A stretch of DNA of 64,000 nt, from NCBI RefSeq assembly GCF_000378205.1, contig NZ_KB899409.1, positions 124,001 through 188,000 of the forward strand. Direction: 5' to 3'. The stretch's first letter is position 1. Every line of letters starts with the position of its first letter. Positions 52,278-57,201 of the stretch are shown here, piece after piece. A program made the translations under genes and the position numbers. The stretch comes from Sediminispirochaeta bajacaliforniensis DSM 16054 (GTDB taxonomy: Bacteria > Spirochaetota > Spirochaetia > DSM-16054 > Sediminispirochaetaceae). The notes beneath the pieces were generated by a model, which made no database searches, was not told where the DNA came from, and saw only the letters and a list, made by a program, of their open reading frames with translations.

Positions 52278-53048
52278 TCACAACTGTGCGATGCTCCTGG
52301 GAATGACGGCATAATCCCTACCATCCCTGATGATCCTGGTCTCAACGCCGTACACATTTCGTATGAGTTCGGGATTGAGGATATCTTCGGGAGCACCCGA
52401 TGCTTCGATATGCCCCTCATGCAGCAACACCACATGATCGGCACAGCGGGCCGCCTGAGAGAGGCTGTGAATGGTCATAACCGTTGCTATATTATGCTCT
52501 TTCGTAAAGAACGTAATTCTGTCCAGCATCTGAAGCTCGTTTTTGATATCAAGGCTGTTTGTCGGTTCATCCAGAAGAAGGACGCGAGGGCTGCCGACCA
52601 GCGTCTGGGCCAGGGATGTCATCTGCTGCTGCCCGCCGCTCAGTTCGTCGACATAGCGGGTTGCAAGATGAGCAATGCCGAGCTTGTTCAGAATCGACAT
52701 AACCTGGTCGAGGTCCTCATCCCCTAGGCGCCAGGAAAGATCATCCAGACGGCCAAGAAGTACAAACTCAAATGCAGTCATCCGGGTCCGCATATCATGG
52801 TACTGAGGCAGATAGCCGATAAGGCGGTGCCACCTTGCCCTGTTCTTTCTGTTTTTGACACAGTCGTCCCATCTTACGATTCCCGTTGCCCCCTCCATAT
52901 GGGAAAGGCATTTCAGGAGGGTCGATTTTCCGGCCGCATTCGGGCCGATTAAAGCCGTAATCTTTCCGGGAAGGGCGGTCATGGTAATCCCGCGGAGAAC
53001 AGGAACGGCCGGCGTGTAGGCAAAGGTCAAATTTTCTGTAACAAGCAT
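52278..53048 (-). CDS. ABC transporter ATPase (iron/cobalamin type, FecE-like)
   Basis: ATG 53048 shares one base with the permease stop (TGATG) and follows AAGGAGG; a GTG one codon earlier is less likely. The 256-residue product has Walker A GPNAAGKST, signature LSGGQQQMTSLAQTL, Walker B VLLLDEPTN and the H-loop MTIHSLSQAA. The family imports chelated iron, heme or cobalamin. It is the last gene of a four-gene operon with a FecCD permease, a binding protein and a methyltransferase. Confidence 0.92.
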   Translation of the reverse strand: MLVTENLTFAYTPAVPVLRGITMTALPGKITALIGPNAAGKSTLLKCLSHMEGATGIVRWDDCVKNRKNRARWHRLIGYLPQYHDMRTRMTAFEFVLLGRLDDLSWRLGDEDLDQVMSILNKLGIAHLATRYVDELSGGQQQMTSLAQTLVGSPRVLLLDEPTNSLDIKNELQMLDRITFFTKEHNIATVMTIHSLSQAARCADHVVLLHEGHIEASGAPEDILNPELIRNVYGVETRIIRDGRDYAVIPRSIAQL

Positions 53049-54112
53049 CACCGAAACCTCCTTCCCGGCTTAAGGAGCAGCACCAGCAAAAAGGGCACAC
53101 CGATGAACGAGGTTATCACCCCCGGGGGAAAAATGGTTCCCGGAATGATGAGCTTGCTCAGAATAGACGCCAGGGAAAGCAGCAGCGAACCGCAAAGAAA
53201 AGAGGCAGGAAGGAAAAAGCGTTGGTCCTCCCCTGTGAACATGCGGGCGATATGGGGACCTGCCAGGCCGATGAAGCCTATGGTTCCGGTAAAAGCGACG
53301 ATGGTACCTGTCAAGAGCGAAATCAGAACCAGTATCCGCATTCTCAGATGCCCCACATTGATGCCGAGGCTGACGGCTTTTGCGTCTCCCAGCCTGAGAG
53401 CCGTCAGTTTCCAGGCCTCCTTTGCAAACAGAGGAAGGACAATGCCGCATACCAGAGCCGTTACCCCCAATCGGGGCCAGGTCGTTTTTGTCAGGCTGCC
53501 GAACAGCCAGAAAACGATGGCCTGCAGCTGTTCTTCAGCGGCAAAAAATTCAAGCACGGCAATACCGGACTGAAAGAGAAACAGTACGGCTATCCCCGCC
53601 AAAACCATGGTCTCGGAACTCAGCTCCCTTCTTCCGTTCAAGGCCAGCACCAGCGCACTGGTCAGGAGGGAAAACAGAAAGGCATTGGCAGGAATCAAAA
53701 CCGGCCCTGCCCACGGTAGTATGCCGACGCCGAGCACAATGGCGAGGGCGGCCCCAAACCCGGCGGCTGCGGACACCCCCATGGTAAAGGGGCTGGCCAA
53801 AGGATTATGCAAGATAGTCTGCATTTCGGCTCCCGCCGCCGAAAGCCCCCCGCCCGCCAGTATCGCCATGAGGGCAACGGGCAGCCTCAGACGCCAGATG
53901 ATGAAACCGGACATTTGATCCTCATGCCCCGGCCTCAACAGGGATCGGATAACCGTCTTTAGGGAAAGAGGTACCGGCCCCGTCACGATATCTCCCATCA
54001 ATAACAGCATGATGACCAGAAGCAGAACCGTAAGCATGATTTTCTTTCTGCCTGTAATGATCCGGTATAGTGCCCGTGAAGGAGATACCCCTTTCTTATC
54101 TGTTTCAGTCAT
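53048..54112 (-). CDS. ABC transporter permease (FecCD family)
   Basis: The start at 54112 overlaps the binding-protein stop by 8 bases; much longer in-frame starts run deep into that gene and are rejected. The roughly 354-residue product has about ten membrane helices and FecCD landmarks (RLPVALMAILAGGGLSAAGA, NPLASPFTMGVSAAAGFGAA, GTIGFIGLAGPHIAR). It forms the channel for an iron-siderophore, heme or cobalamin-like ligand. The charged tail starts MTETDKKGVSPSR. Confidence 0.92.
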   Translation of the reverse strand: MTETDKKGVSPSRALYRIITGRKKIMLTVLLLVIMLLLMGDIVTGPVPLSLKTVIRSLLRPGHEDQMSGFIIWRLRLPVALMAILAGGGLSAAGAEMQTILHNPLASPFTMGVSAAAGFGAALAIVLGVGILPWAGPVLIPANAFLFSLLTSALVLALNGRRELSSETMVLAGIAVLFLFQSGIAVLEFFAAEEQLQAIVFWLFGSLTKTTWPRLGVTALVCGIVLPLFAKEAWKLTALRLGDAKAVSLGINVGHLRMRILVLISLLTGTIVAFTGTIGFIGLAGPHIARMFTGEDQRFFLPASFLCGSLLLSLASILSKLIIPGTIFPPGVITSFIGVPFLLVLLLKPGRRFR

Positions 54113-55283
54113 CGAGTCCCAACATCCATACACCGCTGTAGGGAACCGGCATGAACCGTTCATGGAATTCTCTGAAGTTTTCTGCGGGATCGACGTCGGC
54201 AAACAGTTCGGGGTGGAGCCAGCAGGCGACCGCCTGTATTCCGGCAAAATTGTAGATTCTGAAAGAGAATCCGTGAAACAAACCGTAGACTCGTTTATTT
54301 TGTACGGCCTTGAGAAACTCCCATCCCTCGCGGTGTGTGAAATTCTCAAGCAGGACACGGGAAGAGGCCTCTTCGGCATGATAGCCGAGCCGCATGGATG
54401 TTTCATTGGCCGGCCAGTAGGAGCCGCTGATTATGATGGCATCGGGATCGGCTTCCAGAAGGTATTCCGGATTGATGGGACCGGTGTTCTGAATGATCCC
54501 ATCGGCAATATTGGTTCCGCCGCCGGTGGCAATAAGCGCTCCCAGCCCCTGAGTCGATGAATAGGTGTTGCCGTATTCCGAAGATCCCTTTGAGCCGGAT
54601 TCAATGTATGCCGTTACGTTTCGGACTTCGGACTCGTTCAAGCGATCGGTCACCACCTGTATCTGATGTTCATAATAATCGGTGATTTCCTTTGCCCGCT
54701 CCTGCTTACCGAGAAGTTGCCCGATGATAAGGGTACTGGGTACAGGATGTTTGAAGGGATCGATATAGTAGTCGATATATACGACGGGAATGCCTGCCTG
54801 GGCAAGGGATTCAATGTCAGCGTCTATGCCGTCCTGGGATTGCAGCCACAAAGGGAAGACAACCACATCGGGAGCCAGACCGACGACGGTTTCCAGACTA
54901 AATGTTCCCTTATAGTGGTAACCGATATCCCTGATTTCATCAATTTGGGGAAAAGCCTCTTTATAGGTACGGTAGGTATCCATATCGTATAGTTTCAGAT
55001 CGGATCCCCAGCCGCATATCCTGTCAAACACCTCGGCCCCACCGACTGCGGCAAATTCATGCAGATGGCGGGATGATGCAAGAACGATACGCTCTGCCGG
55101 CAGCTTTACATTCACGACCCTTCCTGCAAGATCGGTTATGGGAGTAGCTGCCTGCATTTCCGCTGTAGATGACTGTAGTTCCGTTGCACCACCGGCAAAA
55201 AGGGACAGGGCCGCGGTCAGCATAAGAATCGCAGCAACGACAGCATGAAGAAGGGTTTTTCTCACACATGATACTATATTCAT
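54105..55283 (-). CDS. ABC transporter substrate-binding protein (iron/cobalamin type)
   Basis: The 392-residue protein has an N-terminal signal segment (VVAAILMLTAALSLFAGG) and a FepB/BtuF-like body (DLAGRVVNVKLPAERIVLAS, LAPDVVVFPLW, NTGPINPEYLLEADPDAIII). No lipobox is evident. It binds a metal complex outside the membrane for the FecCD permease. Its ATG overlaps the methyltransferase stop by 4 bases. The methyltransferase neighbour hints that the ligand may be a modified metallophore or corrinoid, but this is inference. Confidence 0.9.
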   Translation of the reverse strand: MNIVSCVRKTLLHAVVAAILMLTAALSLFAGGATELQSSTAEMQAATPITDLAGRVVNVKLPAERIVLASSRHLHEFAAVGGAEVFDRICGWGSDLKLYDMDTYRTYKEAFPQIDEIRDIGYHYKGTFSLETVVGLAPDVVVFPLWLQSQDGIDADIESLAQAGIPVVYIDYYIDPFKHPVPSTLIIGQLLGKQERAKEITDYYEHQIQVVTDRLNESEVRNVTAYIESGSKGSSEYGNTYSSTQGLGALIATGGGTNIADGIIQNTGPINPEYLLEADPDAIIISGSYWPANETSMRLGYHAEEASSRVLLENFTHREGWEFLKAVQNKRVYGLFHGFSFRIYNFAGIQAVACWLHPELFADVDPAENFREFHERFMPVPYSGVWMLGLDD

Positions 55284-56029
55284 TCTTTTACTCCTTTGAT
55301 TAATTCGGTGGCGGGGGCAAGGGAAAGCCGGTAGAGCAGCGGCATATTCCGTGCCCGTATCCTTCGTATCTCATGAAGGGTTTCTCGTGTGATGTCGGAC
55401 AAACCGCATTGCCGAAACTGTTCTACGGCTTGTTCAGGTTCAACACCCCGACGAAAGGGAAGCTGACTGCTGACCTCTTCGCTATAGCCCAGATCGGAGG
55501 GCTTTGTCCTGTTGTACAGGATGAGACCGGCCTTGCGGCATACGGCTTTCAGGCGACCGGTAAGGCCGTTGCTATGCCACAGTCCGTCGATACAGAGCAC
55601 GCAGCCACCGGGTTTTAGTACGCGTTTCCACTCCAGTACCGCCCGATTGGGATGAGGAAGGGTCCACAAAAGCCACCTGGATACGACAAAATCGAATGAT
55701 TCACTTTCAAAAGGCAGGTTCTCGGCATCGCCAATCACAAAATTGAGATTCAGATTAAGAGCGGCCGCTTTCTCCCGGGCCCTGTCCAGCATCTCCCGGG
55801 TCAAATCCAGGGCAGTAATACGGTGCCCCTTCTGTGCCAAAAGAAGCGAGAAAAAACCTGTCCCAGCTCCGACATCGAGAATTTCCGCCCGATTGGGAGG
55901 GATATAGCGGCCGAGGACCGCTTCATAGGCCTGTATCTCTTCCTCTTCTTTTCTTGAAGCAGGAAACCGGTCGTACGTAGCACTTCGTCCGCGCCAGTAC
56001 GCTTGGATGTGCGATTTTACATCAGACAT
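55280..56029 (-). CDS. Class I SAM-dependent methyltransferase
   Basis: The start at 56029 follows GGAG with 5-base spacing; a longer start is less well supported. The 249-residue product has SAM motif LDVGAGTGFFSLLLA, acidic ALDLTREM, and FDFVVSRWLLWTLPHP. The N-terminus (HIQAYWRGRSATYDRFPASR) is typical of UbiE-like small-molecule methyltransferases. It is first in an operon with an iron/cobalamin-type importer, so its substrate may be a metallophore or corrinoid. The mRNA leader can pair with the ribosome site, which implies translational control. Confidence 0.87.
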   Translation of the reverse strand: MSDVKSHIQAYWRGRSATYDRFPASRKEEEEIQAYEAVLGRYIPPNRAEILDVGAGTGFFSLLLAQKGHRITALDLTREMLDRAREKAAALNLNLNFVIGDAENLPFESESFDFVVSRWLLWTLPHPNRAVLEWKRVLKPGGCVLCIDGLWHSNGLTGRLKAVCRKAGLILYNRTKPSDLGYSEEVSSQLPFRRGVEPEQAVEQFRQCGLSDITRETLHEIRRIRARNMPLLYRLSLAPATELIKGVKE

Positions 56030-56334
56030 GAGAACTCCGATCTTCACGTAAAAATGTTAGTAAGGAGTTCGTCTCCGATAGAGTCCCTTCATGGGAACCT
56101 TTGAGGGAAAACTTTCTACAATGGCTCAGGCCTTTTTATCCTGAATGGGGCTTCATGCCTTGCACTACTATATAATGCCGCTTTTCCGAAAGTCAATCCA
56201 TGGAACATTCGACTGTGTAATGCCTTATGATGAAAGAAAGATTGACGATATTATAGTACTCAAGGCAAGGGGAGTGTCTGCAACGAGCAATTTGCCTTCC
56301 ACAATCAGCTTGCCTTCCCGCATAAAGATGGGGT
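56030..56334 (-). promoter_or_regulatory. Intergenic leader with a ribosome-site-hiding hairpin
   Basis: This 305-base gene-free stretch carries the operon promoter and a leader of about 130 bases on the minus strand. GAACTCC (plus 56064-56070) pairs perfectly with GGAGTTC (plus 56032-56038), which contains the Shine-Dalgarno GGAG. A second copy of ATCGGAG (plus 56073-56079) can pair with the same CTCC. No known riboswitch class was recognised. On the plus strand before the RNase D-like gene I see only a weak -10-like site. Confidence 0.5.
56169..56196 (-). promoter_or_regulatory. Promoter of the methyltransferase/ABC operon
   Basis: On the minus strand: TTGACT, 16-base spacer, TATATA. Confidence 0.6.
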
Positions 56335-57201
56335 ATGGTGGCTTCAATGAGTGAGCATATTCGGTTTCTTGACAGTGACCAGGCCACTTCGGCCTGGCTT
56401 GATGATATCAAGGCGAGGGGAGTTCGTGAGATCGCCGTGGACATCGAGGGGGAGTTCAACCTCCACCGCTACGGCGAGCATCTTTGCCTGGTCCAGGTAT
56501 GGGACGGCGAAGTTCTTGCCGTTGTCGATCCCCTGGCTGTGGACCTTGCCCTGGTCAGAGAGATATTCGAGTCCGGCTCCTTTCGAAAGATTGTCTACGA
56601 TTGCAGCAGCGACAGAACCCTGCTCTATCGAAGGTACGGTATATATTTCAACGAGGTGTGCGATCTCATGCCTGCGGTGGTTCTGCTTGATTTCCAGAAA
56701 AAGGGGCTTGCTTCGGTGCTCTCTTCGGTCCTGCATATCGAGGAAAAGCCGAAGAAAAAGTTTCAGCAGTACGATTGGATGAGCCGCCCCATCGATGGCG
56801 ATGCCCTGGAATATGCCGCCGCCGACGTACTTCACCTTTTCACGCTCAAGGAGGAGCTTTTCAGGCGCCTGGAAAAAGAGGGGCTCAGCAATGAGTACGA
56901 GCGGCAGAACAGCGAGGTGACGAGCCGCCCGATTGACAAGGAGGGTACACCCGGCCTTTTCAAGAAAAAGCGTTTTCTCTGTATGCCCAAGAGCGGTAGG
57001 GACCAATTCTCACGCCTTTTTTCCATACGGGATGAGTATGCACGAGAGCTTGATCTGCCGCCCAACAGAGTGGTCTCAAACGATGAGCTCTTTTTGCTTG
57101 CCGCTTCACGATTGAAACCGAATGGGATCCGGCTGCCGAAACGGATGCATCCGAGCCGGGCCCAGGAGCTTCGTCACCGTTTCACGGAAGCCTTGAGCTA
57201 A
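56335..57201 (+). CDS. RNase D-like 3'-5' exonuclease
   Basis: The 288-residue protein has a DEDD-type exonuclease domain: AVDIEGEFNLHRYGE (metal Asp/Glu), KIVYDCSSDRTLLYRR and EYAAADVLHLF with the Tyr of the DEDDy group. A helical C-terminal region (from about 205) resembles an HRDC domain. RNase D trims 3' ends of tRNA and other RNAs. Either ATG 56335 (GGGG upstream) or ATG 56347 could be the start. It is a single gene followed by a large structured element. Confidence 0.87.
   Translation: MVASMSEHIRFLDSDQATSAWLDDIKARGVREIAVDIEGEFNLHRYGEHLCLVQVWDGEVLAVVDPLAVDLALVREIFESGSFRKIVYDCSSDRTLLYRRYGIYFNEVCDLMPAVVLLDFQKKGLASVLSSVLHIEEKPKKKFQQYDWMSRPIDGDALEYAAADVLHLFTLKEELFRRLEKEGLSNEYERQNSEVTSRPIDKEGTPGLFKKKRFLCMPKSGRDQFSRLFSIRDEYARELDLPPNRVVSNDELFLLAASRLKPNGIRLPKRMHPSRAQELRHRFTEALS

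Follow-up and report, generated by a model that had tools for sequence, protein, structure and literature searches.

How is the translation of a methyltransferase and ABC transporter operon in Sediminispirochaeta bajacaliforniensis controlled, and what does this operon take up? Its leader can pair with its own Shine-Dalgarno (SD) sequence, and a preliminary description read this as a translational switch in an importer operon. In this study, we analysed the locus within the window, i.e., the whole 64,000-nt stretch of contig NZ_KB899409.1, and compared it with the sister genome (G001) and with other genomes of the class.

The operon and its transporter

On the minus strand the operon has the order methyltransferase, substrate-binding protein (SBP), FecCD permease, ATPase. 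The class I SAM methyltransferase gene (55280-56029) starts at ATG 56029, matches Methyltransf_11 and scores under all NCBIfam cutoffs. GTG 56047 lies in the same frame and has no SD. Used as a probe of the genome contigs, the methyltransferase retrieved distant relatives only. It is followed by the SBP gene (54105-55283, Peripla_BP_2 domain match), the FecCD-type permease gene (53048-54112, FecCD 270 bits) and the ABC transporter ATPase gene (52278-53051, profile matches). The permease start at 54112 was placed from the length of its homologue in genome G162; the mechanical ORF starts at 54406 and is thereby ~98 codons too long (54112-54406, minus strand), overlapping the SBP gene. An RNase D-like gene, starting at 56335 or 56350, is divergent from the operon. 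On the plus strand, a short near-repeat (TCAAGGCAAGGGGAGT and TCAAGGCGAGGGGAGT, 56259-56275 and 56406-56422) lies upstream of and inside this gene.

An iron or corrinoid-type ligand had been proposed for the operon, but gene linkage indicates nickel and the nickel-pincer nucleotide (NPN) instead. Of 395 class genomes, only six have close relatives of the SBP; each of these six carries larE, as against 63 of 297 genomes overall. In G162 (L232, G162:C48), larC, larB and the genes for SBP, permease and ATPase follow one another on one strand. The window proteins share 67% (SBP), 74% (permease) and 63% (ATPase) identity with these homologues, and LarB and LarC of G162 score above the curated cutoffs. 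G008 has a related transporter set with two methyltransferases in a span of ~18 kb, together with a LarA-family epimerase gene, larC, larE and larB. The region (G008:C1:703507-721733, L225/L226) holds three FecCD-type ABC systems besides the two methyltransferases and the lar genes, and resembles a nickel-pincer island. The FecCD-type NiuBDE system of Helicobacter is a nickel importer (PMC5140060). Like the window transporter it has a FecCD permease, a Peripla_BP_2-type SBP and an ATPase, and it is annotated as iron transport and moves nickel (PMC5140060). Unlike NiuBDE, the window operon contains a methyltransferase gene and shows linkage to lar genes, from which we infer nickel as the substrate. 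Based on the lar linkage (G162, G008, larE in six of six genomes) and the NiuBDE precedent, the operon is likely to import nickel, or a complex of it, in connection with the NPN cofactor.

The leader and its possible pairing with the SD

A candidate sigma-70-type promoter, TTGACT-N18-TATAGT, is located at 56167-56196 on the minus strand; the 400 bp scanned contained 2 such sites against 0.5 expected, and both hexamers are intact in the sister genome. From its position, transcription is predicted to start near 56160, giving a leader of ~130 nt. Reading the leader as a decayed ferredoxin-like N-terminus (FSLKGS...LLTFLRED) was dropped, as Pfam and NCBIfam gave it no support.

The reported 7-bp pairing over the SD is exact (7/7): on the minus strand, GAACTCC (56070-56064), the anti-SD arm, pairs across a loop of 25 nt with GGAGTTC (56038-56032), which includes the methyltransferase SD, GGAG. 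At 56067-56060 the arm overlaps CUCCUUAC, the portion kept in the lar leader described below. When the ~60 nt preceding the SD are dinucleotide-shuffled, a perfect anti-SD arm of at least 7 bp arises in 2.6% of cases, and an equal or longer one is found at 4 of 158 SD-bearing starts of the 248-kb contig. Many such pairings are therefore expected per genome, and the SD pairing, taken alone, is a weak signal, little above chance. The whole leader folds no better than its shuffles either (z -0.49 and -0.24). In the sister genome, 58 nt from CGGAG through the start codon are identical. However, such identity is common in the contig, since the 60-nt start window is unchanged at 35 of 156 starts and 29% of the bases aligned with the sister lie in identical runs of at least 58, and thus it is no sign of selection. 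The motif ATCGGAG had been said to occur twice, which holds for the window (56079-56073 and 56041-56035); the upstream copy, however, is ACCGGAG in the sister, so that CGGAG alone is kept.

Two hairpins can be drawn upstream of the SD. H1, GGUUCC-CAUGAA-GGGACU (56082-56099, minus strand), was recognised from sequence and alignment and has as counterparts UGUUCC-CAUGAA-GGAACG in the sister and GGUACC-AAGAA-GGACC in the lar leader; three changes between the species keep its stem paired, in a comparison of two sequences only. H2, GGAG-ACGAA-CUCC (56064-56076, minus strand; GGAG-AUGAA-CUCC in the lar leader), is suggested by sequence and folding, and would represent the SD-free state. By leader sequence and folding, either of two pairings that exclude each other is possible, and one of them covers the SD.

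A related leader precedes larE-larC

A 146-nt leader query was compared by BLAST with 297 genomes of the class. Beyond the orthologue in the sister, it matched a second site in G001 (E 0.004), and the reverse search from this site recovered the window leader from each of the two genomes, at E 0.0016 and 0.0056. E-values of this size arise about once per 300 genomes searched, and therefore the similarity was tested within the genome. For comparison, 1.1 Mb of G001 supplied 1,624 upstream regions of SD-bearing ORFs; the window leader scored 44 with the second site and no more than 28-29 with the other non-self regions. The second site is the leader of larE-larC, genes of the NPN cofactor; LarE reaches 313 bits with TIGR00268 (cutoff 150) and LarC 151 with TIGR00299 (cutoff 90). 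A DUF3842 gene lies upstream of this leader. Other BLAST matches (G013, G157, G200) were discarded, their number being as expected for ~300 genomes; the one in G013 is antisense within a hypD-like gene.

Some 63 nt of the two leaders (56060-56123 in the window, minus strand) align nearly gap-free, as found by BLAST, alignment and covariance model. This common block includes GGAG-AYGAA-CUCCUUAC and ends in GGAGAYGAACTCCTTAC. On its 3' side the window and lar leaders diverge, yet in both, seven pairs can form with the leader's own SD region, GAACUCC/GGAGUUC in the window leader and CUCCUUA/UAAGGAG in the lar leader (UAGGGAG in G001). In both, CUCC also has the same alternative partner, the GGAG located five bases 5' of it. 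The folding energies of the two states differ by ~0.4-3 kcal/mol in all four leaders, and the SD-paired state is favoured in three. By sequence comparison, the similarity between the leaders of the two operons is well supported. The translational-switch layout put forward in the preliminary description is plausible and gains support, as a paralogous leader shows the same alternative CUCC pairings; what stands is the possibility of pairing.

The SD of the lar leader belongs to an ORF of ~20 codons, MSWETFTASPATAPREMREE (L114 1580-1642); its stop codon and the larE start overlap (ATGA), which suggests that the two are translationally coupled. A neighbouring frame upstream has TGA in G001 and AGA in the genome of the window (G000).

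Distribution and loop motif

Searched with a covariance model of the common block, 395 genomes yielded no leaders other than the window and lar leaders of the two congeneric species; the common pairs are invariant in the four sequences, and the covariance check found no further leaders in these genomes. A match in G154 (E 0.07) was rejected as AT-rich and lacking H2. As the preliminary description had stated, no known riboswitch class is recognised: Rfam 15 gave 0 matches at the gathering threshold in the whole window. A relaxed Rfam search of the window, lar and G131 larE leaders returned chance-level, non-riboswitch matches, apart from wcaG, which was far under threshold and inside a coding region.

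The lar leader can form three AUGAA-loop hairpins, CGGA-AUGAA-UCCG, AUCCG-AUGAA-CGGAU and GGGAG-AUGAA-CUCC. A survey of 215-nt upstream regions (1,619 in all) showed three hairpins with one and the same pentaloop in the lar leader only; three other regions have two. A genome-wide set of AYGAA hairpin pairs was rejected, as the lar leader alone qualifies within the 1.1 Mb of G001 examined. In G131, a member of another family (L227/L129, G131:C138), two tandem 7-pair AUGAA hairpins, CGCUGCC-AUGAA-GGCAGCG and GCGAAAG-AUGAA-CUUUCGU, lie within the 82 nt before the larE ATG; ~60 other larE upstream regions contained no AUGAA hairpins. The lar leader and G131 together are suggestive of AUGAA hairpins as a lar-linked feature.

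The pattern GGAGAYGAACTCC at first looked enriched, with hits in 92 of the 297 class genomes, but was set aside. Apart from the two leaders, the inspected loci fall within open reading frames, for example in an E-M-N-S stretch of chemoreceptor-like proteins; the excess is therefore codon-driven and the reversed control unfair. Likewise, GGAGATGAACTCC is about three times commoner than its reversed control in the 297 Spirochaetia-class genomes, apparently through codon usage in coding regions.

Discussion

We favour, at a probability of about one half, a genus-restricted RNA leader that acts on translation in a two-operon nickel/NPN set, and we infer its RNA form, switching, signal and direction. 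According to this model, a cis element of ~63 nt in the mRNA would set translation initiation at both operons. In one state, GGAG-AYGAA-CUCC would form and leave the SD free; in the other, CUCC would pair with the SD and initiation would be blocked. A signal, either a small ligand or a protein, would probably act at H1 and the U-rich stretch that precedes it. As the SD-paired default is favoured in folding, the signal would switch the genes on by stabilising H1/H2, although the energies are too close to decide. What speaks against an RNA switch is that the SD pairing is near chance, that the leaders fold no better than their shuffles, that the common pairs show no covariation, and that the element is confined to two operons in one genus.

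The main rival, which we consider rather unlikely, places the signal on the DNA: a nickel-responsive repressor would bind downstream of the promoter on two dyads about two helical turns apart, and the SD hairpin would be incidental. The block does contain two dyads, TTCC-N6-GGAA and GGAG-N5-CTCC, with loop starts separated by 20 bp in the window leader and 19 bp in the lar leader; two operons of a single pathway would be natural targets, and an SD pairing near chance is what an incidental hairpin would give. However, an operator accounts poorly for the spacing of the block, as its distances to the predicted promoters differ (about 44 and 70 bp in window and lar) and those from its end to the start codon are similar (31 and 23 nt). 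Nor would it explain that the 3' end of the block is the anti-SD sequence and that the spacer AYGAA is asymmetric and conserved. It is improbable, to a slightly greater degree, that there is no switch at all, the SD pairing being chance and the likeness of the leaders an old duplication without present role. The 2.6% chance rate and the unremarkable folding energies fit this well, but the duplication predates the split of the species and ~63 nt have been kept at about 70-75% in both of them while the flanks diverged beyond recognition, and the duplicated block precedes two functionally linked operons.

Leader-peptide attenuation, in which a translating ribosome would cover the anti-SD arm and free the SD, appears very improbable. 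An ORF suited to it exists at 56092-56057 (ATG AAG GGA CTC TAT CGG AGA CGA ACT CCT TAC TAA, MKGLYRRRTPY), with a counterpart, MKERYRRRTPY, in the sister; it contains three Arg codons and terminates shortly 3' of CUCC. It lacks a convincing SD, however, a weak AAAGG being absent from the sister, and two of the three codon changes are non-synonymous. As its ATG is AAG in the lar leader, the peptide is not common to both operons.

Among known RNA systems, the RNA leader that we favour resembles translational riboswitches and other SD-sequestering leaders, in which an anti-SD arm has two alternative partners, the SD and an arm upstream. Unlike these riboswitches, the window leader matches no Rfam family, and the role of a ligand is predicted only. 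With the NiCo (czcD) and cobalamin riboswitches it shares a metal or corrinoid gene context, but neither family was matched by the window or lar leader, relaxed thresholds included. Guanidine-II loops are ACGR tetraloops, whereas those of the window and lar leaders are pentaloops (AYGAA/ANGAA), found in a nickel gene context and not beside guanidine export. The guanidine-II (mini-ykkC) riboswitch is alike in its small tandem hairpins with like loops, and alternative pairing of its anti-SD sequence with the SD has been put forward (PMC7544219). The Rfam mini-ykkC model gave no match to the leader in a relaxed cmscan up to E 10.

Conclusions

It is tempting to speculate that the two leaders belong to a new riboswitch class that senses nickel, NPN or a precursor, with joint control of cofactor synthesis and metal import at the level of translation, although we regard this as unlikely. 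If it were true, tandem AUGAA-pentaloop hairpins would characterise the class; the lar leader has three of them, and G131 has two of 7 bp before larE. No description of RNA-level control of NPN synthesis was found in the literature searched. In this genus, the common leader is probably a control element of nickel use not described before, and as it precedes both the lar genes and the lar-linked FecCD transporter operon, it provides a concrete two-operon set for testing. In summary, the common leader reassigns a transporter of 'iron/siderophore-type' to probable nickel uptake and could lead to an RNA sensor of nickel or NPN.
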